A DNA stretch of 64,000 nucleotides. Origin: Actinopolyspora halophila DSM 43834. Its GTDB lineage: Bacteria; Actinomycetota; Actinomycetes; Mycobacteriales; Pseudonocardiaceae. The notes under the pieces are model-generated. The model saw only the letters and a program-made list of their open reading frames with translations. It was not told where the DNA came from and did no database searches. Location: the NCBI RefSeq assembly GCF_000371785.1, contig NZ_AQUI01000002.1:5009352-5073351 (forward strand). The letters run 5' to 3'. Below, piece after piece: positions 17,024-62,691 of the stretch (position 1 is its first letter; each line of letters starts with the position of its first letter). Position numbers and translations under genes: made by a program.

Positions 17024-17470
17024 TCGTCCGGTTCAAACCGGGGAGAGCCCCACAACTCAGACGATCGTGTGAACTCCGCCCCTCGGGAACTCAGCACACC
17101 ATCGCGATCGTGGAGGGAGCATCAGTACTCGCACCGAGCGGAATCCGGAAAAACACTCATACAAGAACTCATGACGGCACTTTGCCTGGGTGCTCGGGTA
17201 GCCGTCACGTGAGTCGGCGCCTTGCGACGTTGGGCCGCTCTTGAGTAGCCACTACGCGGCGAGCGGCCCGGCCTTGCAATGCCTCCGACTCACGCACCGG
17301 ATCTCCTCGTCCCGCTCGGGCTGAAGCACCCGCGTCGAACGAAGCCCTTCTGCCGGAAGTTCTCAACAAGAACTCGGCGAATCGGTTCGCGCGGGTGCTC
17401 GGGTAGCCGTCACGTGAGCCGACGCCTCGGGAGCGTCGCGCGGCACCTCGAGCCGCCTGCCCTCCACGAG
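17024..17470. other. Repeat-filled intergenic region
   Basis: No gene. It holds repeat copy A1 (17208-17294), its extension to about 17370, and a decayed partial copy (17393-17470) that repeats the segment GGGTGCTCGGGTAGCCGTCA seen at 17188. It lies downstream of the response regulator stop. Confidence 0.7.
17208..17294. repeat. Dispersed structured repeat, family A, copy A1
   Basis: 87 bp. Terminal inverted repeats CGTGAGTCGG / CCGACTCACG; inner stem GGGCCGCTC (17232-17240) / GAGCGGCCC (17261-17269). The loop contains GTAG-CCA-CTAC. The flank to about 17370 (AAGCACCCGCGTCGAACG) is shared with copy A4. Confidence 0.9.
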
Positions 17471-18082
17471 TCACAACCAACCGCGCTGCCTGGCCATGTT
17501 GGCCGCCTCCGCGCGATTGCGCACCCCCAGCTTCGCCAGTGCCGTGGACACGTAGTTGCGCACCGTCCCCTCCGCCAGACTCAGCTCCGCGGCGATGTCG
17601 GCGTTCGTCGCCCCCTCGGTCACGGCCCGCAGCAGCTCGCGCTCCCGTTCGGTGAGCGGATCCTCGCCCTCCCACGCCGTGACGGCCAGTTCGGGCGCCA
17701 CCACCCGTTCCCCGGCACGTACCCGGCGAATCGCGTCCACGAGATCCCCTATCGGGGCATCCTTGAGCACGTAGCCGAACACCCCCGCGTCCATCGCGCG
17801 GCGCAGATACCCGCTCCGCGCGAAGGTCGTCACGATGACCACGCGGACCGCGGACCGCTGCTCGTGCAACCGCTGTGCCACGTCGAGCCCGGACCCCCCG
17901 GGCATCTCGATATCGGCGAGCAGCACGTGGGGGCTGTGCGACCGGACCGCCTCGAACGCGTCCTCGCCGGTGGTCACCGAGGCCACCACCGAGATGTCCG
18001 GTTGCGCGGCGAGCAGTTCCGCGAAGGCACCGAGCACCATGGTCTGGTCCTCGGCGAGCACGACGCTGATCTCCCCGTCCAT
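17471..18082 (-). CDS. NarL/FixJ-type response regulator
   Basis: 203 residues. Receiver domain 1-120: acidic pair EDQ at 11-12, phosphoacceptor Asp57 in LLADIEMPG, conserved Thr in VVIVTTFA, and Lys in YVLKDA. LuxR-type helix-turn-helix at about 143-190 (LTERERELL to VRNYVSTALAKLG). Its ATG overlaps the kinase stop by one base (TGATG). It probably controls the ABC exporter genes of the same operon, as in DesKR/LiaRS-like systems. Confidence 0.93.
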   Translation of the reverse strand: MDGEISVVLAEDQTMVLGAFAELLAAQPDISVVASVTTGEDAFEAVRSHSPHVLLADIEMPGGSGLDVAQRLHEQRSAVRVVIVTTFARSGYLRRAMDAGVFGYVLKDAPIGDLVDAIRRVRAGERVVAPELAVTAWEGEDPLTERERELLRAVTEGATNADIAAELSLAEGTVRNYVSTALAKLGVRNRAEAANMARQRGWL

Positions 18083-19194
18083 CAGACGGCCACCTCCAGC
18101 GGGAGCGTGACGGTCAACGTGGTTCCGGAAGAACTCCTCCGAATCAGTTCCCCACCCACGGCGGTGACCCGCTCCCGGATCCCGGCCATACCGTTGCCCT
18201 CCCGGAACCGTCCACCCACTCCGTCGTCCGAGATCGTCATCCGCAGCTCCCCCCGCTCCGCGCGCAGCCCCACGTGACACGTGCGCGCACCCGAGTGCCG
18301 CACCACGTTGGTGACCGCCTCCCGCAGCACCAGTGCCAGCTCGTGCTCGGTGGAGGACACCAGCGTCAGACCGCTGTCCCGCTCGACCGTCAACCGCATC
18401 CCGGCACTGGACAGCGCGTCCCGCGCGGACTCCAGCTCACCGTCGACGGTGGCGTGCCGCCATCCGCCCACGGCCGAGCGCATCTCGGACAGGGCGTGCC
18501 GCGCGGTGTCCTCGACCTCCCCGGCCACGGAGCGCGCCCGCTCCGGATCGACCCCGACCAGCTGCCGAACCAGCTGAGCACGCATGATCACCGCCGTCAA
18601 CGAGTGCCCGAGCAGATCGTGCAGCTCCCTGGCCATCCGCTCCCGTTCGGCGACGGTCGCCAAGTGCTCGATACGGGCCAGACGCGACCGCAGCTCCGTG
18701 GCGTCCCGCTCGCTCTCGGCGTGTTCCATCTGGGTGAAACCGATGATCCAGACGAACAGCACCGAGGGAATCACGCCCCACAGTCGCCACGGCATGGCCA
18801 CAGTCGACAGCATCGTCAACGCACCGAGCAGCAGGGTCAGCCCGATGAACCAACGAACGGCCACGCGCCGGGGCTCGGAGATCCCCGCCGTGGCCGCGGT
18901 GTAGACGAACAGCACTCCCGCACCGGTGTTGAACGGCACCGTGAGCGCACCGAGCACGGTCATCGGCACCATCGATCCCCAGAGCGCACGGTCCGGACGC
19001 AACCACGGCACCAGGTACAGCGGAACGGCGAGCAGCACGATGACGCCGTAGAGCCCCCACTCCCACCGTTCGGGGGAGGGGTCGAACGCGGGCTGGAACG
19101 CGGGAATGCCCAGATAAACCAGATGCGCCCAGCCGACCCTGCGCCACCACGCGCAGTTCCGCGTGCCGGACACGGTGACCGGTGTCGGGGTCAT
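18082..19194 (-). CDS. Sensor histidine kinase (HisKA_3 type)
   Basis: 370 residues. About four membrane helices in residues 24-155 with little extracytoplasmic sequence (intramembrane-sensing style). Dimerisation motif ERERMARELHDLLGHSL gives phospho-acceptor His192. The ATPase N-box is LREAVTNVVRHSGA (290-303), with DDGVGG (323-328) and a GMAGIRERV box. The ATG overlaps the permease stop by four bases. It partners the regulator at 17471 and is co-transcribed with an ABC transporter, so it may sense membrane or cell-wall stress. Confidence 0.92.
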   Translation of the reverse strand: MTPTPVTVSGTRNCAWWRRVGWAHLVYLGIPAFQPAFDPSPERWEWGLYGVIVLLAVPLYLVPWLRPDRALWGSMVPMTVLGALTVPFNTGAGVLFVYTAATAGISEPRRVAVRWFIGLTLLLGALTMLSTVAMPWRLWGVIPSVLFVWIIGFTQMEHAESERDATELRSRLARIEHLATVAERERMARELHDLLGHSLTAVIMRAQLVRQLVGVDPERARSVAGEVEDTARHALSEMRSAVGGWRHATVDGELESARDALSSAGMRLTVERDSGLTLVSSTEHELALVLREAVTNVVRHSGARTCHVGLRAERGELRMTISDDGVGGRFREGNGMAGIRERVTAVGGELIRRSSSGTTLTVTLPLEVAV

Positions 19195-19967
19195 AACCGA
19201 GCGTACCTGTACGACAGCTCGGCCGCCGTCGCCGCCACCGCGGTCGAACCGAGCAGCACCACGACGTGCCCGAGCACCTGCCCACCGTCCAACTGGGCGA
19301 GTGCGAGCCGGGCGAGGTGGTGTGTGGGCAGCAGGGCCGCCACGTCGGCGAAGAAGTCCGGCAGTATCCGCAACGGCATCCACAGCCCGGAGAACACGGC
19401 GGCGGGCATCAGCACCGCGTTCAGCACGGCCGCCGCGGCGTTCGCCCTGACCCGGAATCCCACCGCGACCCCGAACAGCGCGAACGGCACCGACCCCACC
19501 AGCAGCACACCGAGAACGCGCAGCAGCTCGACGGGCGAGGCACTGAGCGAACCGGTCAGGGCCGCGGTAACGGTCATCGCCGCCAGCACACCCACCGCGT
19601 AGGGCAGCGCGGCCGCGATCTTGGCGAGCAGCGTCACACCGACCGGAACGGCCGAGACCCGCTTGGCGCGCAGCCAGCCGAGTTCGCGGTCCTGGGCCAC
19701 GCCGACACCGGGATTCATCAGGGTCACCGACAACACCCCGAAAGTGCCGAACATGGCCAGCATCCGGGTTCCCGCGGGTATCGTCCCGGCGTCGTAGTCG
19801 CCGAAGATCGAGACGAACAGCGCGAAGAACCCGACCGGCATGAGAACGGAGAACAACAGCGCCGTCGGTTCCCGCAGGATCGAACGCAGCTCGTCGGCGA
19901 TCTCCACGCGCAGCACCGCACCGAGGCGGACACGGTTCCGCGCGGAAACATCGGTCATCCCGCTCAC
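19191..19967 (-). CDS. ABC-2 type transporter permease
   Basis: 258 residues with six membrane helices in ABC-2 layout: long first cytoplasmic stretch, then FSVLMPVGFFALFVSIFG, and the conserved NAVLMPAAVFSGLWMPL segment before the last helices. The GTG start overlaps the ATPase stop by four bases. It forms an exporter with the ATPase at 19964-20887; the substrate (drug, lipid or peptide) is not readable. Confidence 0.9.
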   Translation of the reverse strand: MSGMTDVSARNRVRLGAVLRVEIADELRSILREPTALLFSVLMPVGFFALFVSIFGDYDAGTIPAGTRMLAMFGTFGVLSVTLMNPGVGVAQDRELGWLRAKRVSAVPVGVTLLAKIAAALPYAVGVLAAMTVTAALTGSLSASPVELLRVLGVLLVGSVPFALFGVAVGFRVRANAAAAVLNAVLMPAAVFSGLWMPLRILPDFFADVAALLPTHHLARLALAQLDGGQVLGHVVVLLGSTAVAATAAELSYRYARL

Positions 19968-20887: not shown

Positions 20888-21011
20888 CGGCCCCTCCCGT
20901 CCGCTCACCTCCCACGATCGCGCCTGCCTCCCGCCGAGCGGTAGTGAAGTGACGTCACCTCTCGTGGATGACAAAAGTCAGTCCGGCGGAAGCGGTGACG
21001 GACGAGAAACA

Positions 21012-21052
21012 CCCCGGGAGGACGGTGTGCGGGACACGCCGTCCTCCCGGGG
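21012..21052 (-). terminator. putP terminator
   Basis: Perfect 14-bp stem CCCCGGGAGGACGG / CCGTCCTCCCGGGG with a 13-base loop, 50 bp beyond the putP stop. On the minus strand it runs into TGTTTCTCG. Confidence 0.88.
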
Positions 21053-21101
21053 CGGAAACGGGCCGGCTCGAAGCCGACGCGGAACGATCCGCAGCGGATC
21101 C

Positions 21102-23874: not shown

Positions 23875-23951
23875 GTCGCCTCCTGTCCACACCCGTGAGG
23901 GGGATCGTCCGTACCTGGTCGGGCCGACGGGTGGCTGGAACCGTCAGGGGC

Positions 23952-27959: not shown

Positions 27960-28283
27960 CGCTTTTCCTGCCGTGTTGATGGTCTGGGTGATCGAGTCCG
28001 GCATGTTGGGAGAAAGCTGTTCAGCATGTTCGGGCAGCGTCGCACGTGGGTGACCCCGCTGTGGATGGACATGGTGAGTTCGCTGGTGGTGCGGGTGACG
28101 AGTTCTTCAGGGCTGTGCGAGTGTCACTTCGGGCGCCTGCGGATCGTGTTGCGGCAAGCCTGTGGGTAGCGCGGGAGCGCCCCTTCGAGCCACGACGTCA
28201 CAGGTGCGGCAACGACACGGAGCCGGAGTGGTTTGTGCACCTAAAGTGCACTCGTGATCTCGAAGAGTTCACACATCAACCCC

Positions 28284-28334
28284 CTGACCAGGGATTCGGT
28301 GAGCCGCCAGGACTCGACCCCTGAACCCGTGGAG
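28284..28334 (-). repeat. Attachment-site scar 1 (degenerate tRNA-Lys 3' half)
   Basis: Degenerate copy of the tRNA-Lys 3' half and its downstream flank: CTGACCAGGGATTCGGT, then GAGCCGCCAGGACTCGA and CCCTGAACCCGTGGA. It has several substitutions and single-base gaps compared with 34191-34244, so it is the oldest of the three copies. Confidence 0.8.
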
Positions 28335-28564
28335 TAGGAGTTCCGTTCGAGAAGCGGCACCGAGCAACAGGGACGCGAGAGCAGTTCCGAGGGAGCGCTC
28401 CGGATTCTCCCGTGATGTCCTCCCACTGGCCGACGCGCACCCTGGCAATGCTGTGGAAGATGCCGAACAGTATCCCTCGGTGCCGGAGGAGCGCACATGC
28501 ACGCTCGACAGCCCGCGGGTCCCTCACGTCATTCCTGGCGATGCCGCGCTGGTGACCTCACGGG

Positions 28565-28593
28565 GTGGACTCAGTAGCACATTGCGCTACAAT
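28565..28593 (+). promoter_or_regulatory. Promoter of the toxin-antitoxin operon (leaderless)
   Basis: GTGGAC at 28565-28570 and TACAAT at 28588-28593, spaced 17 bp. The toxin GTG starts seven bases after the -10 box, so the transcript would be leaderless. This fits the absence of a usable Shine-Dalgarno. Confidence 0.6.
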
Positions 28594-28599
28594 CGGAGC

Positions 28600-28908
28600 G
28601 TGACAACCGAACTCTGGTGGGATGAGGAGGATGTCGAGCACATACGTACTCGTTCGATCCGTTATCCCGGAGCGACCGACATCGAACCGAGTTGGACGAT
28701 AGAAGCGGCCGTGGACTCGCACCGGGTGCTACGTGATCCGGACCCGAAAAGCCGAGCGAGCTACATCCGGATCATCGGTTACTCCGCGAGCGCCGAGTTC
28801 GTAATCACCGTCATCGTCGACCCCGCGGACTTCTCCGGGGTCACGGCCCGGAAAACGCGCGGGGCCGACCTGCGCGACTATCTGGAGAACAAGGAGGCCG
28901 GAACATGA
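28600..28908 (+). CDS. Small toxin, BrnT-like, of a type II toxin-antitoxin pair
   Basis: 102 residues. It opens with WWDEEDVEHI and ends with GVTARKTRGADLRDY, with a central RIIGYSASAEFVITVIVDP strand pair, similar in layout to BrnT/DUF4258 small RNase-like toxins. The GTG start sits at the predicted transcription start. Its stop overlaps the antitoxin ATG by four bases. Toxin-first order is as in brnTA. The family call is from layout only; the catalytic residues cannot be confirmed. Confidence 0.65.
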   Translation: MTTELWWDEEDVEHIRTRSIRYPGATDIEPSWTIEAAVDSHRVLRDPDPKSRASYIRIIGYSASAEFVITVIVDPADFSGVTARKTRGADLRDYLENKEAGT

Positions 28909-29231
28909 CGAAAACCGAGGACAACCGGGCGAACCGCCGTGCCAGACATGCCGCGATCCGCGCCGAGGTCGCCGCGGAAGAAGCCGAGAACGCCGAAGCG
29001 GAATCAGCCGAGAACGCCACGACGTTGGACGTCCCGCTACACCTGCGCATCGACCAGCAGCTGGACGCACAACTGCGCGAGTGGGCCGCCACCGAGCACA
29101 TTCCCACCTCAGCGCTGGTGCGCCGCCTGCTGCGACAGGCCATGCAGGAACATCGCGGTGACTTCCCCACCACTACTCAGGTGGAAGAGATCGCCCGCCG
29201 CGTGGCACGCGAGGAACTCCACCACAGCTGA
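28905..29231 (+). CDS. Ribbon-helix-helix type antitoxin
   Basis: 108 residues. An acidic, Ala/Glu-rich N-terminal coil (about 20-45) precedes a CopG/RHH-like segment: beta strand LDVPLHLRID, helix QLDAQLREWAATEHI, then PTSALVRRLLRQAM. It would bind and neutralise the toxin and repress the operon. The pair lies between attachment-site copies 1 and 2. Confidence 0.7.
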   Translation: MTKTEDNRANRRARHAAIRAEVAAEEAENAEAESAENATTLDVPLHLRIDQQLDAQLREWAATEHIPTSALVRRLLRQAMQEHRGDFPTTTQVEEIARRVAREELHHS

Positions 29232-29953
29232 AACACCGAGCAACGCCCCACAGCGGATCCGTGTTCGACGACTCCGGAGCTGCCGGAGAACGAAAAACCT
29301 GACCAGGGATTTCGGTGGGCCGCCCGGGACTCGAACCCTGAACCCGTGGATTCTGAGGCGACACTTGGCAGTGTCTGACGTCGGTTGCCAGCAGCCCCGG
29401 ATACCTGCGTCGATGGCGCAAGCGAACGGCCAGTCACTGCCTGTCACTTGTGGTCCTCTGACATCGTTTCGTGGGGATAAAAGGGGGATACTTGCGGCAG
29501 GAAACGCAAGAGCGCTCTACTTCCCTCCCCTCATCCGACACCCAACCGCTTCCAGCGGTCAGTCCGGGGAGTCAAGAGCAACCAGCCACGGACTCACGTA
29601 GCGTTGGCTTCGGAACCGTGATACTCTCTTGACGCTCCGGGCTGGTCGCCATCCTTCAACGGCGGGTGAAGGCGGAATTCACTGCTAGCTAGAGATTAGG
29701 AGACGGTCCTTCGCGTGGTCTGTCGTCGTTGGTCAGTCCTTGGCGTGAGCTGGGGCGGGGCACGTAGGCGAGGACTTGTTACATGGCGGCAGCAGTGGAC
29801 GTTTGCCGTTGATTTGTGAGGGTGAAGTGGGGAGCTGAGTTTTGTTTCTGGTTCGTCATCCTCTTCGTACCATCCCAACACGGTGCTGCTTCTGCGGTCG
29901 GGGGTTCGCATCGTGGAGTCGAGGTTATGCGACGCTTCTGTGTCTGAGGTTGG
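29232..29953. other. Non-coding part of the island after the antitoxin
   Basis: No gene recognised in 722 bp. It holds attachment-site copy 2 (29299-29352). A motif GGGGATAAAAGGGGGAT (29473-29489) is repeated at 34143-34159 next to the integrase remnant. From about 29600 the GC content falls, marking entry into the low-GC segment. Confidence 0.55.
29299..29352 (-). repeat. Attachment-site copy 2
   Basis: 54-bp direct repeat of 34191-34244 with one mismatch. It covers the tRNA-Lys from the anticodon loop to base 73 plus 17 bases of 3' flank, and identity stops sharply inside the anticodon loop. It bounds the second element on the left. Confidence 0.92.
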
Positions 29954-30619
29954 ATGTATCTTCAATCTATGGAGAAAGATGCGTCTTCGGTCGAACTAGG
30001 TGGCGAATCCTGTACGACGGTGGAGGACGAGGCTGTGTCAGGCTGCGACGAAGGCACCACTTTTACGAAGGATACGGCAGAAGAGCACGCAGACCATTCC
30101 CCTCAATTTTCTGGTCTACGTTCGGGGCTGGCCGCGGCACAGCAGTCGGCGGTGGCCTCAGTAGCACGGAGCCTGGACTTCTCGGGGGTGGCCACAGCGC
30201 AGCAATCGGCGGTGGCCTCAGTAGCACGGAGCCTGGACTTCTCGGGGGTGGCCACAGCGCAGCAGTCGGCGGTGGCCTCAGTAGCACGGAGCCTGGACGT
30301 AGGCGGGCTGGCTGTCCCAACTTTCCGAGATACAGTCAATTTCGGTGACAGTGTTCCTGGGATTTCTTCGAGCTTGGTCGTGACAGACCCTGTTGATACA
30401 GGCGACTGGGAAGTTGAGACTACTCCACGTGGCTTCATTGTTAGTGTTCGCCCAGCAACGGCAGCAAAGGGGCTGACTGCCATTGGCTTGCTTGAGCTAC
30501 TTCTCGTACTAAACGATGTCGCGCCGGAACAGTTCGCAAAGTATAGTGTTCCTGTTGCCCTATGGCTTACTCTTCTTCCTCTCATGAAGGGATCGTCATC
30601 AGGCCAAGGAAACACCTGA
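29954..30619 (+). CDS. Low-GC protein with 20-residue tandem repeats and C-terminal hydrophobic helices
   Basis: 221 residues; not a recognised family. An acidic N-terminus (1-50) is followed by about three copies of a 20-residue unit (AQQSAVASVARSLDFSGVAT, about 60-120), probably helical. A middle domain (GDWEVETTPRGFIVSVRP) and two hydrophobic stretches near the end (LTAIGLLELLLVL and VPVALWLTLLPLM) suggest membrane association. GC is near 52% against about 70% around it, so it is foreign. ATG 29954 follows GAGG; ATG 29969 is the alternative. Confidence 0.65.
   Translation: MYLQSMEKDASSVELGGESCTTVEDEAVSGCDEGTTFTKDTAEEHADHSPQFSGLRSGLAAAQQSAVASVARSLDFSGVATAQQSAVASVARSLDFSGVATAQQSAVASVARSLDVGGLAVPTFRDTVNFGDSVPGISSSLVVTDPVDTGDWEVETTPRGFIVSVRPATAAKGLTAIGLLELLLVLNDVAPEQFAKYSVPVALWLTLLPLMKGSSSGQGNT
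30121..30300 (+). repeat. 60-bp in-frame tandem repeat
   Basis: Three 60-bp units. Units 30181-30240 and 30241-30300 differ at two bases; the first unit is diverged in its first half. The period is a multiple of three, so copy-number change keeps the frame. Confidence 0.95.
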
Positions 30620-31173
30620 GCAATAAGTAAGATTCTATTCTTACATCGTGGGTTGCTGTCTAAAATCCCTTCGAGGCAAGACTGTGGTCAACGCGGCTCG
30701 CCTAGCGAGCCCCGATGTCCACAGTCGCGGCAGCGATCGCCGGGCCCAGCGGGGCCAGGATGACCACATTGGCGATCGTGAGAAGTACCCAGTGTGCTCG
30801 GTTTTTCTGTTGACGGCCCCTGCCGTGGTCTCGGGCCGCCTGCCTTCCGCTCGCGTCCGGGAAGCCGCCCGCCCACCGCTCCGCGGTCGGCCGCCGGCGC
30901 CGGGACCGGGCGTGCCCGCACGCCCGGCGTCGGCCAGGCCGACGCACCAGACAAGCGGGCGGGCGGCTCTCCCTGGCGCACTGGGCAAGTAGGCAGGCGG
31001 CCCCGGCAGGGGCCCGCCCTTGATGAAGAAAAGAAACTCTACACACACGCAGACCGGGTCAGTGTGTACGCGCCCGGTAGATACTGGACACTCCTGTCCC
31101 AGATGACGTCTGACGGTGTCCGAGATTAACTTCGATGTCACCCATCGTTTGCTGGCGTGTTCGTGAGTCGAGA
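30620..31173. other. Structured GC-rich region between two accessory genes
   Basis: No convincing gene. A weak hairpin GTAAGA-TTCTAT-TCTTAC (30627-30644) may terminate the repeat-protein gene. From 30820 to 31020 the GC content rises sharply and three hairpins occur. Confidence 0.5.
30906..31014. repeat. Cluster of three perfect palindromes
   Basis: CCGGGCGTGC-CC-GCACGCCCGG (30906-30927) directly abuts CGTCGGCC-A-GGCCGACG (30928-30944). A third, GGCCCC-GGCA-GGGGCC, lies at 30999-31014. The density of perfect inverted repeats is unlike the rest of the window and recalls plasmid or conjugative-element origins. No relaxase or replication gene remains beside it. Confidence 0.7.
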
Positions 31174-32427
31174 TCAGCGTTCGATTGCGTTCAATGCGTG
31201 GGTGAAGGCATCTTCACTGACGACAGGTACACCGTACTTTCGAGCGTCCTTTGCCTTACCCGACAACGAATCCGGGTCGGCGGCAGCTACGAGTCTGGTT
31301 TTCTTACTCACGGCGGATGTCACTCGCAGGCCGGCCGCTTTGACTTGCTCTTGAATCTGTGCGCGTGGCTGATGCATCTCTCCGGTCAGGACAACTTTGT
31401 CGCCGGGGCGGAGCTTCAATCCGCCAGCGGTTACCGACATCGTCGACATGCCGCCGCCCTGCTTACCTGTGTCCTGTTCCTCGGCGAGAACTCGCTCGAC
31501 GGTCTCCTGGTTCAGCCCGAGCAGGGTGGCGACGGTGTCGATGTCCGTGCGTTCGGCAGGGGTGACGACGCCATCGAACCAGGCAGTGCGGACGAGCTCT
31601 CGCAGGTAGGAGTGGTGCAGGGCAAGGACCTCGGTCTTGTGGAGACCGAGTTCGTGCGCCAGCTCGAGCAGTCCGTCGGCTTCGGTCGCTGAGATCTGCC
31701 GGTCCAACAACGCATCATCGAGCATGGCGAAGTAGGAATCGGCGTCCGGTTCTTCGTCACGCGGCATGCGTTCGACGAGGCGGGCGAGAAAGTGGGGGTG
31801 CACATAGCCGATCGGGGGACGGTGCACTGGAATAAACGGCTGCTGCGAGGTTGCGGGCCAGGGCCACTGCGCAGCATCGAGATGCTGGTCGGTGACCTGC
31901 ACAGTCGCTGGATGTTCACGGAGAAGATAGGCGAGCAGGTCGGCTGCGGCGCGGGCATCGTCGTGGGCAGTGTGCCACCGACGGTCCGGCAGTCCTGCGG
32001 CTGCGCAACAATCAATCAGGGACCGATGCGCCGAAGGCAGCGCCTGGCCTGCGGCGCGCATGGTGCACAGGCCGGCCTTGTCGTGGAACGGTGTGTCGAT
32101 CCCGCAACGGTCGAACTCAGTCCGCAAGTGCATGGCGTCGAAGGCCCAGTTATGGGCCACGAGTACGCGGTCGCGGAGCCGGTCAATGAGCTCGCCGGCG
32201 GCGTGTTCGAAGCTGGGTGCGTGCCGGACCTCGGAGGCGTGAATGCCGTGGATTGCTTGGGGGCCAAGGTCTCGATTCGGGCTGAGCAGAGTGGTCCACT
32301 CGTCGGTGACCACCCCGGCTGTATCGACGTGAACGACGGCGATCTCGACGATGCGGTGCCCGTAACCGGCCGAGACTCCCGTAGTTTCGGTGTCGACGAC
32401 GGCGTATCCGGAAAGTTGGTCGGTCAT
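31174..32427 (-). CDS. DnaQ-like exonuclease fused to TerB-like and BRCT domains
   Basis: 417 residues. The DEDDh 3'-5' exonuclease (8-175): Asp12 and Glu14 in VDTETTG, Asp97 in HNWAFDAMH, and His152/Asp157 in HTAHDDA, so all catalytic residues are present. A TerB-like helical domain at about 230-320 contains WFDGVVTPAERTDIDTV. A BRCT domain is at about 341-412 (DKVVLTGEMHQPRAQ to VPVVSEDAFTHAL). Its ATG overlaps the upstream gene's stop by four bases. The role is probably in DNA repair or defence against foreign DNA. Confidence 0.87.
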   Translation of the reverse strand: MTDQLSGYAVVDTETTGVSAGYGHRIVEIAVVHVDTAGVVTDEWTTLLSPNRDLGPQAIHGIHASEVRHAPSFEHAAGELIDRLRDRVLVAHNWAFDAMHLRTEFDRCGIDTPFHDKAGLCTMRAAGQALPSAHRSLIDCCAAAGLPDRRWHTAHDDARAAADLLAYLLREHPATVQVTDQHLDAAQWPWPATSQQPFIPVHRPPIGYVHPHFLARLVERMPRDEEPDADSYFAMLDDALLDRQISATEADGLLELAHELGLHKTEVLALHHSYLRELVRTAWFDGVVTPAERTDIDTVATLLGLNQETVERVLAEEQDTGKQGGGMSTMSVTAGGLKLRPGDKVVLTGEMHQPRAQIQEQVKAAGLRVTSAVSKKTRLVAAADPDSLSGKAKDARKYGVPVVSEDAFTHALNAIER

Positions 32428-33146
32428 AGCGGAAGCCTCGTGTCGGCGGCGGTCTGGACTGCATCGAGCCACGAAGGCGGCAGCAACTCTGGATTGCCGT
32501 GGGCGCCGTTAACGTAGCTACGCCGGTTCTTTACCTGTTCGGTCTCGGCCCACTTTTGCGCCAGCCAATGAAGCACACGGCTCACCGTGAGTGCCTCAGA
32601 GGCCACCGGAGTTCCGGGGGCCTGCGCCACACCCGCGAGACGCCGCACCCCATCGAAGTCCTCGGGCGGAGTCTCAGCCGCCAGGTCCCGTGCCCAGCTC
32701 AAAGCGACGATGTTCTTACGCTGTTGTTTCGCTGCGGCAACTGTCTTCTCCATGGCGGCGCGACGCGCGAGTATGTCCTGCAGTGCAAACAATGGCGAGA
32801 AGGCCTGTTCTTTCCACCACGACGTGGTTCCGAGCTCTGCCGCGACGGACAACTGGTCAAGAAAGGCGTCCACGATGTCGATGTGCTTTGCTGTGATCGC
32901 CCGCCGTTCCAGCAACACCAACACGCGCCGAGCCTGCTCTCGGGAGTGCATCAGCTCAGGCAGGGCCAGCACCCATGCGCCCGTGGGACGCGCCGAGGGG
33001 CTCAGCTGCCACACAGCCAGCGCCTCGCCACCGGTCTCGTCAGACCCCAGAGCCACGACGGCGTTTCCCGGTGCAAACGCATCCGCGGTCGGCTTGGCGA
33101 GAGCAGCATCTAATTCGTCTGGCGATTCCAATGTGGTATCTGCCAC
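32424..33146 (-). CDS. Conserved protein of unknown function co-transcribed with the exonuclease
   Basis: 240 residues, soluble, no membrane segment. An N-terminal beta-rich part (NAVVALGSDETGGEALAVWQLS) is followed by helices. The pattern resembles a DUF6218-like actinobacterial family, but I am not certain. The GTG start sits behind AGGAGG. It is coupled to the DnaQ-TerB-BRCT gene by a 4-base overlap, so the two products probably act together. Confidence 0.7.
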   Translation of the reverse strand: MADTTLESPDELDAALAKPTADAFAPGNAVVALGSDETGGEALAVWQLSPSARPTGAWVLALPELMHSREQARRVLVLLERRAITAKHIDIVDAFLDQLSVAAELGTTSWWKEQAFSPLFALQDILARRAAMEKTVAAAKQQRKNIVALSWARDLAAETPPEDFDGVRRLAGVAQAPGTPVASEALTVSRVLHWLAQKWAETEQVKNRRSYVNGAHGNPELLPPSWLDAVQTAADTRLPL

Positions 33147-33358
33147 GGCGCCTCCTACCTACCAGACCCAAGCGTGTGATCATTCTCTGGATATTTCGGT
33201 GGAAGCACCTCATCGGTTACACCACAATCGGTAACGAATAGATAACATTGCGTCGTGCTGTCAACTCTTACTTGGGATGGACACGTTCGGGTTGGCCTGA
33301 TCGCGTGCACTTACGGTTGGGCTGACTCGGTGTCGGTGTTGGTGGATACGGTCGCGCC

Positions 33359-33910
33359 ATGTCGTTGTATGCGTGGGCGTTCGAGGTCTCGCGGGACAAG
33401 CTGGCGGAGAGTCTTCCGCGCCGTTGGTCGCATGTTCAGGGGGTTGCCGAACGGGCTCGTGGTCTTCGTCCGGTCTCCGGCGACAACGCTGATCTGTTGG
33501 AGGCGGCCGCGGTCCTGCACGACGTGGGCTACGCCCCGGACCTCGCGACGACCGGGTTTCATCCGTTGGACGGGGCGGTCTTTCTACGGGAACTCGGTGC
33601 TCCGGATCGGTTGGTGCATCTGGTCGCGCATCACTCCTACGCGGCGTTGGAAGCCGAACTCCGCGGGTTGTCGGGCGAACTCGCGGACTTCGTCGACGAG
33701 ATCGGCGTGATCCGTGACGCGTTGTGGTACTGCGACTTGAACACCACCCCGGACGGCACGGAGGTGGACGCGCGGGACCGTATCGCCGAGATTCAACAGC
33801 GCTACGGCCCGCAGCACCTGGTCACCCGGTTCATCAACGAGGGCTCGCCGGAACTGCTCGCGGCCGTGGACCGCACGCGCACACGGCTGAAATCGGCAAA
33901 GGTCAGCTGA
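33359..33910 (+). CDS. HD-domain phosphohydrolase
   Basis: 183 residues. HD metal ligands: His25 (RRWSHVQGVA), His54-Asp55 in VLHDVGYAP, the HHS pair at 91-92, and a later Asp in DALWYCDLNT. Such proteins hydrolyse nucleotides or other phosphate esters. It lies 90 bp before the integrase remnant, a position often held by such a gene in actinobacterial integrative elements. Confidence 0.85.
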   Translation: MSLYAWAFEVSRDKLAESLPRRWSHVQGVAERARGLRPVSGDNADLLEAAAVLHDVGYAPDLATTGFHPLDGAVFLRELGAPDRLVHLVAHHSYAALEAELRGLSGELADFVDEIGVIRDALWYCDLNTTPDGTEVDARDRIAEIQQRYGPQHLVTRFINEGSPELLAAVDRTRTRLKSAKVS

Positions 33911-34000
33911 GATACGCCCCGGAACGCTGCTGCAACGCGTGCTCGATGCGCATCCGCATGGTGCGGGTACATGGTCAGGCTTTCAACTCTCCAGTCTGGC

Positions 34001-34150
34001 CCAGTGCACCCGGCGGCTTCGCTGCTGGGGCACTCGCGGCCCTCGCTGACTCAGGACGTGTACATGGGGCGTCAGTCCCTCGACCGTGACGCCGCTGAGG
34101 CACTGGAGTCAGCCTTGGATATAGAAGACCCGAATGTTTCGGGGGGATAA
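34001..34150 (+). pseudogene. C-terminal remnant of a tyrosine integrase
   Basis: The frame reads LLGHSRPSLTQDVYMGR and continues to a TAA at 34148. The Gly-His box and the active-site Tyr spaced ten residues after that His are the last motifs of actinobacterial tour-type integrases. Upstream sequence (33911-34000) does not continue the catalytic domain, so the Arg-Lys-His-x-x-Arg part is gone. It ends 40 bp from the attachment site, where an intact integrase gene would end. Confidence 0.85.
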
Positions 34151-34190
34151 AAGGGGGATGCGGCTTCGCCGCCTAACACCCTAAAACCCT

Positions 34191-34244
34191 CTGACCAGGG
34201 ATTTCGGTGGGCCGCCAGGGACTCGAACCCTGAACCCGTGGATT
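34191..34244 (-). repeat. Attachment-site copy 3 (within the tRNA-Lys gene)
   Basis: 54-bp segment covering the 3' half of tRNA-Lys plus 17 bases of flank, repeated at 29299-29352 and, degenerately, at 28284-28334. It is the functional attB-derived end, since the tRNA is intact only here. Confidence 0.92.
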
Positions 34245-34280
34245 AAAAGTCCACTGCTCTGCCCGTTGAGCTAACGGCCC
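34208..34280 (-). tRNA. tRNA-Lys (anticodon TTT)
   Basis: 73 nt, full cloverleaf: acceptor GGGCCGT pairs with the 3' GCGGCCC side, D-arm AGCTCAACGGGCAGAGC, anticodon stem GTGGA/TCCAC with loop CTTTTAA (anticodon at 34245-34247), and T-arm around GGTTCGAGTCC. CCA is not encoded. It is the integration target of the island. Confidence 0.96.
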
Positions 34281-44113: not shown

Positions 44114-44306
44114 GCGTGTCCGGAGCTGAAGGTGCGGCTCCTCCACCGGAGCGCGTCACGCGCAACGTCCGAGAGTCCCGGGCCCCCAGTCGAGCAACCG
44201 GCACTGGCGGCAAGGTTCCACTCCAACGCAGGCGCTTGCGAGCCTGGGCAATCGGCACCGCCGAAGGATCCGTGCTTCAGCCTGAGCAGAACGAGAACAT
44301 CCGGTG

Positions 44307-44394
44307 CGTGAGTCGGATGCGTTGCAAGGCCGGGCCGCTCGCCGCGTAGGTCGCTACTCAAGAGCGGCCCAACGTCGCAAGGCGCCGACTCACG
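44307..44394. repeat. Dispersed structured repeat, family A, copy A2
   Basis: 88 bp, inverted relative to A1. Terminal repeats CGTGAGTCGG (44307-44316) and CCGACTCACG (44385-44394); inner stem GGGCCGCTC (44332-44340) / GAGCGGCCC (44362-44370). Loop contains GTAG-GTCG-CTAC. It sits between the convergent XRE gene and pstB. Confidence 0.92.
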
Positions 44395-44436
44395 TGCCGG
44401 CTACCCGACCACGCACACCACGCACTTCGCAGGAGG

Positions 44437-45213
44437 TCAGCCGAAGCGGCCGGAAATGTAGTCCTCGGTAGCCTTCTGACTGGGATTGGAGAAGATCTTT
44501 CCCGTCTCGCCGATCTCGACCAGCTGGCCGGGCTCGCCGACGGCGGGCAGGTTGAAGAACGCCGTCTGGTCGCTGACGCGTGCTGCCTGCTGCATGTTGT
44601 GCGTCACGATCACGATCGTGTAGTCCTTCTTCAGCTCGGCGATGAGGTCCTCGATCGCCAGCGTCGAGATCGGGTCGAGCGCGGAGCAGGGTTCGTCCAT
44701 CAGCAGGACGTCGGGCTGCACGGCCGTGGCGCGTGCGATGCACAGCCGTTGCTGCTGCCCTCCGGAGAGGCCTCCGCCCGGCTTGTTGAGCCGGTCCTTG
44801 ACCTCCTCCCAGAGGTTGGCCCCGCGCAGCGAACGCTCGGTGATCTCGTCCAGCTTCTTCTTGTCCTTCTCCCCGGCCAGTTTCAGCCCGGCGACGACGT
44901 TGTCCTTGATCGACATGGTGGGGAAGGGGTTGGCCTTCTGGAACACCATTCCGATGGTGCGCCGCACCTGCACCGGGTCGACCCCGGGCGCGTAGACGTT
45001 CTCGCCGTCGAGCAGTACCTTGCCCTCGACCCGGGACCCCGGCACAACCTCGTGCATGCGGTTCAGCGAGCGCAGCACTGTCGATTTTCCGCAACCGGAG
45101 GGCCCGATGAAGGCGGTCACACTGCGCGCGTGCACCTGCAGCGTGACGTCCTGAACTGCGTGGAACTTGTTGTAGTACAGGTTGAGGTTCTCGATGTCGA
45201 GCCGCTTTGCCAT
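44437..45213 (-). CDS. pstB: Phosphate ABC transporter ATP-binding protein PstB
   Basis: 258 residues. Walker [10 protein letters not shown] (near residue 33-41), signature [14 protein letters not shown], Walker [13 protein letters not shown], His switch in [10 protein letters not shown]. It energises phosphate import through PstCA. Last gene of pstS-pstC-pstA-pstB; 15 bp separate it from pstA. Repeat copy A2 lies 42 bp beyond its stop. The Rv0820 (phoT) equivalent. Confidence 0.96.
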
Positions 45214-48471: not shown

Positions 48472-48555
48472 GTCGTTCCTCCAAGACCGGAAGTCAACGG
48501 CGTGTGCCGTCCACACCCGGCAACCTTAGGTCCATTTGGTAGACATCTACCGCCA

Positions 48556-54573: not shown

Positions 54574-54597
54574 AGTCGCTCCCGGGGATCGGAACCG

Positions 54598-55350: not shown

Positions 55351-55470
55351 GTGAATCCTGTCTCTCCCGCGTGAGCACCGGTGCCGCTGAGCACCGAAAC
55401 GCGATCCCCTGAGTCGTTGTCCGCCCAGATCATGCCTCAGCCCACACCCCACGACGCGCGGGTGGTGGTT

Positions 55471-55593: not shown

Positions 55594-55659
55594 CTCTCAC
55601 CCGAGGGAACGGGGGTCAGGCTACGACTGCCGCGGACGGACGCGGTAGTCTCGACAGCG

Positions 55660-56334: not shown

Positions 56335-56450
56335 GCGAACCGCACCGCTCGGCAAACCGACCCTCCGAAAGCCCGAGGCAAGAACTCCTGGCAGAGGGGC
56401 ACCGTTCCGACGCGGGCGCTTCAGCCCACCTGGAAAGAGAAGCTCCGGTG

Positions 56451-56510
56451 CGTGAGTCGGATGCATTGCAAGGCCGGGCGTTTTCGAGCGGCGCCAGCCG
56501 CTCACACCCA
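56451..56510. repeat. Family A repeat, partial copy A5
   Basis: The left arm CGTGAGTCGG with ATGCATTGCAAGGCCGGGCG is as in A2 and A3. It then departs into its own hairpin GAGCGGC-GCCA-GCCGCTC, and the right terminal arm is missing; B1 begins instead. Confidence 0.75.
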
Positions 56511-56547
56511 CCCGAGCAATCGGCACCGCCGCGGGTTCTCTCGTGGT

Positions 56548-56615
56548 GCTCTCGCGAGAACGGCCCCGACGTTGTGTAGGCCGCTACCCGATGTCGGGGC
56601 ACCCGCAGCGAGAGC
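56548..56615. repeat. Family B structured repeat, copy B1
   Basis: Outer stem GCTCTCGC (56548-56555) / GCGAGAGC (56608-56615), extended outward by CTCTCG / CGAGAG. Inner stem CCCCGAC (56564-56570) / GTCGGGG (56593-56599). Loop contains GTAG-GCCG-CTAC. Confidence 0.88.
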
Positions 56616-56670
56616 CCGCGAGAGGTTCCGCCACGCAACCATCCACGCGAACCGAGCCGCCGAACCCCCG

Positions 56671-57519
56671 TCAGTACTGGGATTCGTAGAGTTTGCTGAT
56701 CCTGTCGTGCAGCTCGGGGTCCGCTTCGGTCGCCGCGCCGTCCACCGCGTGCACCTGGACGATCCTGCGGATGCTGGAGGCCAGCCACACCCCGTCGGCC
56801 CGGTGGAGACGCTCCACGGAGACGGGTTCCACAGCGGTGCGCCATCCCGCCTCGGAAGCCGCTCCGAACAGGGCTCCCTGGGTGGTGCCGCGCAGGATCC
56901 CCGCGCTCGGAGGCGGCGTGACGAGAGTGTCGCCCTCGGCCAGCACCACGTTCGAGGTGGGTCCTTCCAGCACCGAACCGTCGGTGGCCGTGAACACGAC
57001 CTCGTCGGCCCCGCGACGTTCGGCCTCCCGCAGGGCGGCCATGTTCACCGCGTAGGACAGCGTCTTGGCCGAGAGGAGCAGCCACGGCGCGCGTTCCATC
57101 ATCCCCGGGTCGATGCCGCGTTCCAGCGTCACGACCGAAATCCCCTCGGCCCTCTTGCGCAGCAGTTCCGCGGAAATCGACTGCCCGGATGCGAAGGCGG
57201 TGGGGGTTCCGTCACCACCGTCGACCCCTCGGGTGCAGACCAGTTTCAGCGCCATTTCGGACTCCGCGTCCCACGGCCACCGGTCCGTCACCGCACGCAC
57301 GGCGTGTTCCCACTTCGCACGTTCCGGAAGCGTCATTTCCAACAGCCGAGCGGAACGTTCGAGCCGGTCCAGATGGGCTTCCAGCTCCCGTGGACGACCG
57401 TCGACCACCAGGATCGTCTCGAAAACGCCGTCACCACGCTGGACACCGAGATCGTCGGCCCGCAGCAGCGGACTCTCCGGATCGACGATGCTGCCGTCGA
57501 GCAAAGCCAGAACACGCAT
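56671..57519 (-). CDS. pabC: Aminodeoxychorismate lyase / class IV aminotransferase
   Basis: 282 residues, fold-type IV PLP enzyme. VQRGDGVFETILVVDGRP is the family opening; the PLP Lys is in LLLSAKTLSYAVN (near residue 150), and VFTATDGSVLEGPTSNVVL holds the Glu region. Most likely makes p-aminobenzoate for folate; a branched-chain or D-amino acid aminotransferase is possible. The folate-binding YgfZ gene is close by. Rv0812 equivalent. Confidence 0.85.
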   Translation of the reverse strand: MRVLALLDGSIVDPESPLLRADDLGVQRGDGVFETILVVDGRPRELEAHLDRLERSARLLEMTLPERAKWEHAVRAVTDRWPWDAESEMALKLVCTRGVDGGDGTPTAFASGQSISAELLRKRAEGISVVTLERGIDPGMMERAPWLLLSAKTLSYAVNMAALREAERRGADEVVFTATDGSVLEGPTSNVVLAEGDTLVTPPPSAGILRGTTQGALFGAASEAGWRTAVEPVSVERLHRADGVWLASSIRRIVQVHAVDGAATEADPELHDRISKLYESQY

Positions 57520-57709
57520 AACAGCAGCTTAGTAGGGATTCGCCGAGTCGGTCCTCGTAGGTTCACCGGGGAAGCCGACCAACGGCCCGTGAGCGGCGCC
57601 CTCGGGCCGGTAGCGACGAGCAGCACACGCCCGAACGGGCCATACCTGGCAACGCGGTCGTACGATCGTGGAGAGCAGCACAGGGACACGACCACAACGG
57701 GAGCATGCC

Positions 57710-58267: not shown

Positions 58268-58336
58268 ACCGTCGTCTGCGTCCCGTTCGGTTCGAACACC
58301 GAGCGGACCCTTCGCAACAACCGCCGAGGAGCGGAA

Positions 58337-59485
58337 TTGAACTCACCTTTGCTCGAACTGCCGGGCGCGGTCCCCGCGCCGGACGACTCGCCGGATTCGG
58401 GAGTGCCGTGGCATTTCGGCGACCCGTTCGGCGAACAGCGCGCGGCCGTCCGCAACGCCGTCGTGGTGGACCGCTCGCACCGCCAGGTCATCGCCGTGCC
58501 CGGCGAGGAACGTCTGAGCTGGCTGCACCTGGTGCTCTCCCAGCACCTCACCGAGCTGGCCGAGGAGCGGGGCACCGAGGCCCTCGTGCTGGACAACCAG
58601 GGACGGGTGGACAGCCACATGCTGGTGGCACACCACGACGAGGTCGTCTACCTGGACTGCGAAGCGGGTTCCACGGCTACCAGTGCGCTGCCCAGCATGG
58701 GCACGGACGGCACGCAGTCGCTCGTGGAGTACCTGGAGGCGATGCGGTTCTGGTCCGCGGTCGAACCGCGCGACGCGACCGGGGAGTTCGCCGTGTTCAC
58801 GGTCATCGGCCCCAAGGCGACCGACGTGCTCGAAGAGGCCGGAGTGACCGAACCGCCCACCGAGCCCTACGGGGTTGCCGCGCTGCCCGGGGGCGGGCTG
58901 GTGCGGCAGGTGCCGTTCCGGCAGGTCTACACCGCCGACCTGCTGGTCCCGCGGGACTCGATGGTCGACTGGTGGATGCGGCTGACCGGCAGCGGAGCCC
59001 GCAGGGCGGGAACCATGGCCTACGAGGCACTGCGGGTCGAGGCCCTGCGCCCCCGGGTGGGGATGGACACCGACGAGCGGTCCATCCCGCACGAGCTGGG
59101 GTGGATCCACACGGCCGCCCACGTGGCCAAGGGTTGCTACCGCGGCCAGGAAACGGTGGCCAAGGTGCACAACGTGGGCAAGCCTCCGCGCCGCATGCTG
59201 CTGCTGCACCTCGACGGTTCGCTGGAGATCCGCCCCGAAACGGGGGATCCGGTGCACCGCGGGGAGCGTTCCGCGGGCCGGGTGGGCAGCGTCGTGCTGC
59301 ACCACGAACTCGGCCCGGTGGCGTTGGCGTTGATGAAGCGCTCGGCCCCGGTCGAAGAGCAGTTCACGGCCGGTGACTCCGAGCAGGAACGAGCCGTCGC
59401 GGCCACGGTCGACCCCGACTCGGTACCCCCGGACACCGGGGAACCGCCGGGGCGGGTGGCCATGCAGGGGCTGCGCGGACACTAA
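58337..59485 (+). CDS. ygfZ: Folate-binding YgfZ/GcvT-domain protein
   Basis: 382 residues. The YgfZ signature KGCYRGQETVAKV (near residue 265) contains the redox Cys. It uses tetrahydrofolate in maintenance of iron-sulfur enzymes. The N-terminal GcvT-like part shows VVVDRSHRQVIAVPGEERL. A TTG start with GAGGAG seven bases before it. The pairing with a Fur regulator fits an iron-sulfur role. Repeat A4 begins right at its stop codon. Confidence 0.92.
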   Translation: MNSPLLELPGAVPAPDDSPDSGVPWHFGDPFGEQRAAVRNAVVVDRSHRQVIAVPGEERLSWLHLVLSQHLTELAEERGTEALVLDNQGRVDSHMLVAHHDEVVYLDCEAGSTATSALPSMGTDGTQSLVEYLEAMRFWSAVEPRDATGEFAVFTVIGPKATDVLEEAGVTEPPTEPYGVAALPGGGLVRQVPFRQVYTADLLVPRDSMVDWWMRLTGSGARRAGTMAYEALRVEALRPRVGMDTDERSIPHELGWIHTAAHVAKGCYRGQETVAKVHNVGKPPRRMLLLHLDGSLEIRPETGDPVHRGERSAGRVGSVVLHHELGPVALALMKRSAPVEEQFTAGDSEQERAVAATVDPDSVPPDTGEPPGRVAMQGLRGH

Positions 59486-59897
59486 TAACTCATAACGGAG
59501 CTTTGCGTAGCCGCCTCGGGTGACCGTCACGTGAGTCGGCGCCTTGCCGGCGTTGGAGGGCACCTCGAGTAGCGGCCTACACAACGTGCCCTCCCCGCCT
59601 TGCAATGCATCCGACTCACGCACCGGAGCTTCTCGTCCTTCCCAGGCTCAAAGCACCCGCGTCGAACGGAGTCTTTGGTCAGAAGTTCCGGGAGGGGCGG
59701 CGTTGCCGACTGCGTAGGCGGTGAAAAGCGGCTGCGCCGCTTGCTCGACGATCGCCCCAGCCGAACGAGTACTCATCCCAATCCGCACGGGCCCTTACCC
59801 GACAACCCGTACGACCGAACGAGTGCTCGCCCGATCCCCGGCGGCCGGACGGGCTGCGGGGGATCGGCGGAGCCACCCGCTGTGCCAAGATCGGAGT
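59486..59897. other. Repeat-containing intergenic region after ygfZ
   Basis: No gene in 412 bp. It holds repeat A4 with its flanks: the segment ATAACTCATAACGGAGC just after the ygfZ stop is matched on the other strand beside copy A3. 59700-59890 has nothing recognisable beyond a promoter for the next gene. Confidence 0.7.
59530..59620. repeat. Dispersed structured repeat, family A, copy A4
   Basis: 91 bp. Terminal repeats CGTGAGTCGG / CCGACTCACG as in A1-A3, but the inner stem is GGAGGGCAC (59555-59563) / GTGCCCTCC (59586-59594), different in sequence yet fully paired. Loop contains GTAG-CGGC-CTAC. Confidence 0.92.
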
Positions 59898-60671: not shown

Positions 60672-60792
60672 CTCGCTCGGCGGCACACCTCCAACTCCCC
60701 CCAGCACGCCACACCGCTGCCCTAGGATGTGGGAAGCAGCGCCGAAGTGCCGGCTCCGGCGAACTCAGCGCCAGGATGCAGAGGTTGTAGCC

Positions 60793-61353
60793 GTGATCGA
60801 AGTGCGCCCCGGAGGCCGCCGACGCATCGACCGGGTTCTCTCCCCGGACTACGTCGGCGATGTCGAACAACGCGGTCTGGACGAAGTGCGCGAACTGCGC
60901 GACGAAGCCGCACAGGAGGAGACCGACCTGTCCTATCTGCGGAGAATGCTGCACGCGCGGATCGACATCGTCCGTGCCGAACAACGCAGACGCGACGAGG
61001 ACGGCTCGGCGACCGTGGTCGAGGAGCTGGTCGGGATCCTCTCGGACAACGCCGTGGGGCCGGCTACCGGTTCCGGTCGGTACCAGACCATGGAGCCGTC
61101 CAGGGCGGAGTCGCACCGCAGACACGTGGAGGCGCTGGTCTCCGACGTGGATCTCTCCGACGTGATGTCGCTTTCGGGTGAGAAGCTGGACGCCACCCTG
61201 CTCGCCTTCGAGTCCGAGGAGGAATCGGTCTCCACTCGACGCAAGCAGGTCCAGACCGTGGTGGACCGACTGAACGAGGAGATCGCGCGCCGATACCGTG
61301 AAGGGGTCGCCTCGGTGGACGAATTACTGGCGGCGGAAAGGGACGGACATTGA
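60793..61353 (+). CDS. rsiG: RsiG-like c-di-GMP-dependent anti-sigma factor
   Basis: 186 residues, helical. RsiG proteins carry two copies of E-x3-S-x2-R-x3-Q-x3-D that clamp c-di-GMP and sequester the sporulation sigma factor WhiG. Copy 2 is complete: E143, S147, R150, Q154, D158. Copy 1 has E43, S47, R50, H54, D58, a Gln-to-His change. GTG 60793 gives MIEVRPGGRRRIDR. Its stop overlaps the asparaginase start. Presence implies a mycelial, sporulating lifestyle. Confidence 0.85.
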   Translation: MIEVRPGGRRRIDRVLSPDYVGDVEQRGLDEVRELRDEAAQEETDLSYLRRMLHARIDIVRAEQRRRDEDGSATVVEELVGILSDNAVGPATGSGRYQTMEPSRAESHRRHVEALVSDVDLSDVMSLSGEKLDATLLAFESEEESVSTRRKQVQTVVDRLNEEIARRYREGVASVDELLAAERDGH

Positions 61354-62318
61354 ACGAGCACGGTAGCCCGGTTCCGCTGGTCGAGCTGGTTCGCGGGGAG
61401 ATCAGGGAAGGCCTGCACCACGGCTCTGTCGTCGTCCTCGCCCCGGACGGCCGGGTGAAGCACTCGCTCGGCGGGGCCGATCACCCCATGTACCCCCGTT
61501 CGGCGAACAAACCGGCCCAGGCCGTCGGCATGATCCGTTCCGGATTGGAGCTGCACGAGGACGCCGACGTCGCGCTGGCCGCCTCCTCGCACAACGGCGA
61601 GCCGGAGCATCTGCTGCGTACGCGTGAGCTGCTCAACCGGCACGACCTGACCGAGGACGCCCTGCGGTGTCCGACGGACTGGCCGCTGCGGGAGGCTGAA
61701 CGGGACCAACGCGCCGCCGAGGGATTCGGCAAGCAGCGCATCACGATGAACTGCTCGGGCAAGCACGCCGCGATGCTCGCGACCTGCGTACAGCGGGGAT
61801 GGGCGTTGGAGGACTACCTCGACACCAAGCACCCGCTGCAGGTGGATCTGCACGAGACCGTCTCCGAGCTGGCGGGCGAACCGGTCGCCGCCACCTCGGT
61901 GGACGGGTGCGGCGCTCCCCTGTTCGCCGTCTCGCTGACCGGTCTGGCACGCACGTTCCGGACGATGGTCACTTCGGGATCGGGAACTCCGCAGCGCAGG
62001 GTGGCCGACGCCATGCGCGCGCACCCCTGGCTGGCCGCGGGGACCGGACGGGAGGACACGCTGCTCATGCGCGCGGTCGACGGTCTGCTCAGCAAATCGG
62101 GGGTCGAGGGAGTGTTGGCTCTGGCGCTGCCGGACGGTCACGCGGTGGCGGTGAAGATCGCGGACGGTTCGGCACGGGCGAGACTGCCCGTGGCCGTCTC
62201 CGCGTTGCGTTCGGTCGGGGTCACCAACGAGGAGCTGGACGCGCTGGTCGAGGAGTCCGTGCTCGGCGGCGGGCGTTCCGTCGGCAAGGTTCGCCCAGTA
62301 GCCGACCTCTTCGACTGA
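61350..62318 (+). CDS. L-asparaginase (type II, AnsA-like family)
   Basis: 322 residues. VELVRGEIREGLHHGSVVVL opening, SSHNGEPEHL, and NCSGKHAAML (near residue 132-141) are features of the thermolabile/R. etli-type asparaginase family, with the conserved Ser-Gly-Lys-His. CGAPLFAVSL follows. It hydrolyses L-asparagine to aspartate and ammonia. The TTG start overlaps the rsiG stop by three bases. Repeats B2 and A3 lie downstream. Confidence 0.88.
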   Translation: MNEHGSPVPLVELVRGEIREGLHHGSVVVLAPDGRVKHSLGGADHPMYPRSANKPAQAVGMIRSGLELHEDADVALAASSHNGEPEHLLRTRELLNRHDLTEDALRCPTDWPLREAERDQRAAEGFGKQRITMNCSGKHAAMLATCVQRGWALEDYLDTKHPLQVDLHETVSELAGEPVAATSVDGCGAPLFAVSLTGLARTFRTMVTSGSGTPQRRVADAMRAHPWLAAGTGREDTLLMRAVDGLLSKSGVEGVLALALPDGHAVAVKIADGSARARLPVAVSALRSVGVTNEELDALVEESVLGGGRSVGKVRPVADLFD

Positions 62319-62361
62319 GAGAGTGCACGGGTCGGTCTGCTCGGGTGGTTCCGTGGGGAAC

Positions 62362-62448
62362 CTCAGTCGGGGTCTCGCTGCGGGTGTCCCGACATCGGGT
62401 AGCGACCTACACAACGTCGGGACCGTCCTCGCGAGACCCGCGACTGAG
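62362..62448. repeat. Family B structured repeat, copy B2
   Basis: Three nested perfect stems: CTCAGTCG (62362-62369) / CGACTGAG (62441-62448); GGTCTCGC (62371-62378) / GCGAGACC (62431-62438); GTCCCGAC (62386-62393) / GTCGGGAC (62416-62423). Loop contains GTAG-CGAC-CTAC. Inverted relative to B1. Confidence 0.92.
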
Positions 62449-62603
62449 AACCCCCGGCGGTGCCGACTGCTCAGGCTCGTAAGCGCCTGCGTTGGCGTGG
62501 GCCTCTTGGTTGGGAGTGCCTGTCCGGGTGCTCTGCGCACTTCCGGCGAAAGGCCTCGGTCGATGCGAGCGCTTCAGCCTACCCGGAACGAGAAGATCCG
62601 GTG

Positions 62604-62691
62604 CGTGAGTCGGATGCATCGCAAGGCCGGGCCGCTCGCCGCGTAGGTGGCTACTCAAGAGCGGCCCAACACAGCAAGGCGCCGACTCACG
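62604..62691. repeat. Dispersed structured repeat, family A, copy A3
   Basis: 88 bp. Terminal repeats CGTGAGTCGG (62604-62613) and CCGACTCACG (62682-62691); inner stem GGGCCGCTC (62629-62637) / GAGCGGCCC (62659-62667). Loop contains GTAG-GTGG-CTAC. The flank runs to the stop codon of the gene at 62735. Confidence 0.93.

Follow-up and report, generated by a model that had tools for sequence, protein, structure and literature searches.

Mycobacteria carry mycobacterial interspersed repetitive units (MIRU), actinobacterial repeats that lie at gene junctions with a fixed polarity and that, to our knowledge, have not been described as covarying rods. Repetitive extragenic palindromes (REPs) are described in one account as 20-40 bp long and tagged at one end by GTAG or CGTC (PMC3733652), and some of those of E. 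coli are placed by another within 15 nt of a stop codon (PMC12306157). Here we describe a structured repeat present in a 64,000-nucleotide stretch of the Actinopolyspora halophila DSM 43834 genome (contig NZ_AQUI01000002.1, positions 5,009,352 to 5,073,351; the window), each copy of which is a rod of about 104 nt with helix lengths fixed at about 18, 9 and 4-6 pairs. As with REPs and bacterial interspersed mosaic elements (BIMEs), the rods are high-copy extragenic palindromes that form mosaic assemblies and lie behind genes; unlike REPs they are built of three helices over ~104 nt, with GTAG in an apical and replaceable position, a distance of 25-60 nt to the stop codon and no requirement for a REP-associated tyrosine transposase (RAYT). 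What is conserved in them is the shape and not the GTAG/CTAC core.

A first-pass annotation of the window had noted four full copies of a family A, one partial copy and two copies of a family B, sharing a loop of the form GTAG-N4-CTAC within differing but exactly paired stems. All seven copies were recovered, with the named stems matched by their own complements and the three-base spacer of copy A1 in place. To these we add a flanking small hairpin, tails, a further truncated family A copy and the copies in the rest of the genome. The parts within the window are as follows.

17197 to 17301, minus strand: family A rod (A1), stem GGGCCGCTC/GAGCGGCCC, core spacer of three bases
17398 to 17452, minus strand: diverged and truncated family A copy, absent from the first-pass annotation
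44300 to 44405, plus strand: family A rod, 3' side next to the stop codon of a minus-strand gene at 44437
56444 to 56479, plus strand: partial family A, the 5' arm alone, cut off at the start of a B unit
56486 to 56503, plus strand: small hairpin S, GAGCGGCGCCAGCCGCTC, upstream of the B rod
56530 to 56633, plus strand: family B rod, 3' side next to the stop codon of a minus-strand gene at 56671
59519 to 59627, minus strand: family A rod, second stem GGAGGGCAC/GTGCCCTCC, behind a plus-strand gene ending at 59485
62353 to 62456, minus strand: family B rod, behind a plus-strand gene ending at 62318
62597 to 62702, plus strand: family A rod, 3' side next to the stop codon of a minus-strand gene at 62735

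Single copies fold far more stably than their shuffles (z of -7.2, -9.0 and -6.3), and small hairpins resembling S are also found upstream of rods in other genera. The pattern GTAG-N4-CTAC occurs six times in the window against an expectation of 0.11, five of these within repeats and one, at 48539, outside any repeat, while A1 does not match it. The loop is thus enriched and largely confined to the repeats, but it does not hold as their constant part: in other genera it is replaced by GTAT..ATAC, GAAT..ATTC or GACC..GGTC with pairing kept, which rules it out as a constant core. The parts that stay constant are instead internal loops: one near the foot with G-U/U-U/U-G, one that sets GAGGACAG against AUCCCGGAG, and one with GUGG across from UCGAUG or UGAUG.

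The first-pass annotation had suggested that a covariance model be searched against the genome and its relatives, and searches by pattern, by single copy and by such a model yielded many copies. The stretches analysed first in the 5.35 Mb genome of A. halophila contain 94 copies with 93 distinct sequences, ten position or strand matches having been removed from this set by eye. A single A copy used as query gave 40 scored matches out of 119 candidates in the genome and a single B copy at least 44 (40 of 327 candidates scored), and GTAGGNNGCTAC occurs at 110 places compared with 15 for its backwards control. Among the 100 of these places that were listed only two fall between 1.70 and 3.75 Mb, dnaA being at 0.165 Mb, and in 20 chosen 20-kb stretches covariance model R1 (E <= 0.01) found eight distinct places in the 14 arm stretches and none in the six opposite the origin. 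With stricter filters that miss weak matches, R1 matched 82 of 390 genomes of the same family, representing 15 of 46 genera, and in the class-wide search of 296 genomes A. halophila was the sole match. The repeats are therefore high-copy and family-wide rather than a few copies from one duplication.

An Rfam search of the window at the gathering score gave a single tRNA match and no repeat match; across seven loci at E <= 5 there were two microRNA-family matches, both in locus L120, below the gathering score and outside the rod at 1501-1603. In the open-access literature searched we found no description of the rod element. A ~104-nt shape-conserved rod with free helix letters, anchored to stop codons in one orientation and found in one family, is new to that literature, while its kind (REP/BIME- and MITE-like mobile repeats; MITE, miniature inverted-repeat transposable element) is known. 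A third palindrome family, built around GGCGATTTCTCGCGAAATCGACGCC, was seen at gene ends of A. alba, A. righensis and A. mzabensis (L175, L176, L177, L197, L203, L220, L240) and not in the window.

The covariation claimed for the seven copies is strongly supported at larger scale. In 58 B copies of A. halophila 92.7% of cells pair, with 160 double-change cells compared with 54.5 in shuffles, and across seven genera (45 copies, six rows from Actinopolyspora) pairing holds in 96.8% of cells, while double changes affect 22 of 40 pairs and number 272 compared with 82 in shuffles; in both sets 0 of 500 shuffles were as high. Slid controls in the seven-genera test favour the structure because it was derived from those sequences, and alignment A3 contained 51 matches, many of them the opposite strand of one place, of which 31 were used. 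Several versions of the outer and of the inner helix occur, each paired with its own complement, and the outer arms of the 58 B copies comprise 51 concordant cases, three clear recombinants and four that could not be classed on one arm. Covariation had initially been taken as evidence that the fold is selected, and here compensation alone is not sufficient proof given that recombinants with mismatched arms exist and that template switching can restore complementary arms, as one study describes (PMC8794818). Selection on the fold is nevertheless likely, since mismatches are conserved together with pairs. Of the 93 A. halophila copies, 81 fold better on the strand of the rod that reads GTAGG (hereafter the GTAGG strand) than on its complement (23/35 in A, 58/58 in B), and across genera helix columns hold 80 G-U against 10 A-C. 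We take the GTAGG strand to be the folded one with moderate confidence, as RNA or single-stranded DNA alike.

In order to place the rods relative to genes, genes were called from codon usage by a custom script; 104 core matches with a stem were reduced to 98 with a family label and both neighbours and to 93 after five were removed by eye. In 63 of the 93 a gene on the opposite strand has its stop codon 25-60 nt from the rod end, compared with 8.6 (standard deviation 2.7) upon random placement in the same spacers, and on the mirror side this spacing occurs in none of the 93. The same 25-60 nt spacing was found for 20 of 31 rods in four other genera. Some convergent gaps of the genome hold two rods, each behind its own gene, as do the rods at 62353-62456 and 62597-62702 in the window. 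For 19 of the 93 copies the gene called downstream reads the same way as the GTAGG strand, and some of these look like gene-finder miscalls. The GTAGG strand runs against the replication fork at 67 of the 98 listed places. Divided by distance from the origin, a grouping made once the list had been seen, these are 55 of the 72 far places and 12 of the 26 near ones. Fork-oriented genes in the 14 arm stretches number 112 of 196, and relative to this gene rate the bias of the rods has a p of 0.015 for all 98 places and of 5e-4 for the far set. In genome G022 the GTAGG strand is against the fork at 79 of 102 listed places, with halves assigned by position and the origin not located.

The copies are also mobile or turning over fast, a point missing from the first-pass annotation, the interpretation of which is partly supported overall. 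Aligned over 182 kb at 93.0% identity, A. halophila and A. biskrensis differ in length by 60 nt or more at 26 breaks. A loose rod pattern matched in both species at 10 of these, in one only at 12 and in neither at four; break-by-break detail was listed for 20 of the 26. A. biskrensis has an intact A where the window has the partial copy at 56444-56479 and is without a unit corresponding to the family A rod at 59519-59627. Most of these presence or absence cases could be explained by loss as well as by gain. Between the TGA and a B unit, A. alba (L214) has an A unit, and at the same place in A. mzabensis (L148) there is B only, while another Actinopolyspora genome, G002, contains ten identical 104-nt rods with shuffled or differing flanks. 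Separately, a 490-nt stretch of the A. halophila genome at C2:4994282 is absent from A. biskrensis and is perhaps a remnant of another insertion sequence (IS).

Movement is best documented in G390, a genome from another genus of the family, and for Actinopolyspora we infer it. The rods of G390 sit in units of ~240 nt, the ends of which read CTGAGTGCCTGTCTTTGAAC and its complement, and the terminal inverted repeat (TIR) motif GCCTGTYTTYGAA occurs 192 times in this genome compared with 0 for its control. Units with a rod are 240 nt and those without 127 nt, units are nested in one another's arms, and 13 of 20 carry an identical TNA triplet at either end. Locus L351 contains an element of ~0.96 kb that codes for an IS5-family transposase and whose terminal repeat, GTGCCTGTCTTTGATCTTGG, differs from the unit ends by 1 nt in 20. 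The element has nine full copies in G390, with TNA duplications in 9/9 and a position within rod-arm sequence in 8/9. G022 has 13 homologs of this transposase and all seven of those aligned have TNA duplications. The G390 units thus resemble MITEs of IS5-family elements in being ~240-nt non-coding units with TIRs, TNA duplications and a full-length partner with nearly equal ends, and differ from them in having an internal rod whose structure is shared between genera with unlike unit ends. In the 127-nt rodless units at L364 and L365 the sequence GGCACCGCC occurs once and in 240-nt units it stands on both sides of the rod, so that the G390 rod may itself be an insertion or a cassette that can be deleted.

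The reading we favour, at somewhat better than even, is that the rods are MITE/REP-like mobile mosaic units with a selected fold, a family-wide structured element at gene 3' ends. A short non-coding mosaic unit comprising small hairpin, spacer, rod and a ~38-nt tail would carry the rod, and such units would spread to and swap between gene 3' ends in a single orientation with the tail against the stop codon, an IS5-family insertion sequence being the likely mobiliser in G390. The fold of the GTAGG strand, whether as RNA or single-stranded DNA, would be under selection in such a way that helix letters are free if paired while internal loops are kept, and at gene ends the rods would probably be structural obstacles to polymerase or exonuclease.

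Several observations weigh against this interpretation. No homolog of the G390 transposase was found at E <= 1e-15 in three Actinopolyspora genomes (G000, G001, G002), GCCTGTYTTYGAA occurs 0 times in G000, G002 and G022, and the rod tails of G022 are unlike its own IS ends. Terminal repeats sought in units of A. halophila gave a best 14-mer match of 9.9 compared with 9.4 in controls, none of them convincing, and a TNA target duplication was not found in the genus. Orientation would be left free by a symmetric target or by a simple TIR element. The stop codons next to A. halophila copies are TGA in 44 cases, TAG in 15 and TAA in four against expectations of 53.6, 6.7 and 2.7, with no enrichment of TNA; a TNA target would explain TGA and TAA, yet the copies favour TAG, leaving the stop codon unsupported as a TNA target in this genus and the anchoring unexplained by one. 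The wobble expected of RNA also had the opposite outcome in the variable columns of the genus, with G-U at 32 and 14 and A-C at 46 and 25.

A possible though distinctly less probable explanation is that the rods serve the host, insulating genes by ending or blocking opposite-strand transcription or by protecting mRNA 3' ends, with turnover by gene conversion and not transposition. The fixed spacing and orientation behind stop codons, the paired rods of convergent gaps each behind their own gene, the bias to genes read with the fork, the conservation of shape across genera and the shuffled flanks in G002 are all consistent with it. The one region looked at has no U-tract, however, the G390 units have TIRs and TNA duplications, and patchy presence (15 of 46 genera) together with frequent loss between close species argues against an essential host role.

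Rather more tentatively, the element might be a mobile insulator coded by shape. A dedicated protein would recognise the internal loops by their fixed spacing along the helices of the folded GTAGG strand, leaving the helix letters free, and the element would home to gene 3' ends with a replication-tied orientation and block opposite-strand transcription.

We regard it as improbable that the rods are selfish palindromes whose arms are kept complementary by template switching during replication and by gene conversion, the fold being unselected. Whole arms do change in blocks, the three clear recombinants among the 58 B copies have mismatched arms, the variable columns of the genus lack a wobble excess and the mechanism is on record (PMC8794818). 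Against this, the non-canonical sites (G-U, U-U and U-G near the foot and GAGGACAG opposite AUCCCGGAG) persist across genera while the helices flanking them are perfected, and such conservation of mismatches at fixed places makes pure template switching unlikely, as does the 80 to 10 ratio of G-U to A-C across genera.

That the rods are ordinary intrinsic terminators sharing sequence by chance is very unlikely. They are strong hairpins behind stop codons, and in some G390 units a T-rich run comes after the small upstream hairpin on the GTAGG strand; yet between 56300 and 62900 of the window a single terminator-like site was flagged (62485; shuffles gave 2.6), which is not a rod, and termination would need neither a conserved three-helix shape of ~104 nt nor the internal loops and common tails.

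Least credible of all is a REP identity with movement by a RAYT (Y1/IS200-type) transposase, for which the high copy number, the extragenic palindromes behind genes, the GTAG motif and the presence of PF01797 in 11 of 17 rod-bearing compared with 2 of 20 rod-free genomes of the family (Fisher p 0.001, with 10 of the 17 from one genus) would speak, but PF01797 is unmatched in six of the 17, among them G002 and G390 with identical rods, which rules RAYT out as a necessary partner, the seven PF01797 matches of A. halophila have no core, A or C match within 1.5 kb (the few loose B-pattern matches there are not rods), and GTAG lies in the apical stem, not the foot, and is replaced in other genera.

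Other features of the window include a tRNA-Lys gene at 34206-34280 (minus strand) and two copies of its end, one near-identical (98%) at 29299-29352 and the other weaker, at 28307-28340. These copies surround the stretch of lowest G+C in the window (0.619 at 28001-32000), and the region 28307-34280 is possibly an element integrated at the tRNA gene. A tandem gene duplication lies at 2910-6652 (2910-3209 and 4969-5268 are 89% identical, 4438-4596 and 6494-6652 79%), and a 60-base repeat is present in three copies, 86-93% alike, at 30122-30312.

Covariation in dispersed repeats has to be weighed against recombination and template switching. The repeat described here is structured, abundant and apparently without a name, and belongs to one actinomycete family. 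As the covariation is clean, each copy is a natural mutant of one fold, and the fixed spacing to the stop codon makes a role at gene 3' ends directly testable, while the nine-copy IS5 element of G390 offers a system for measuring the movement of a covarying hairpin.

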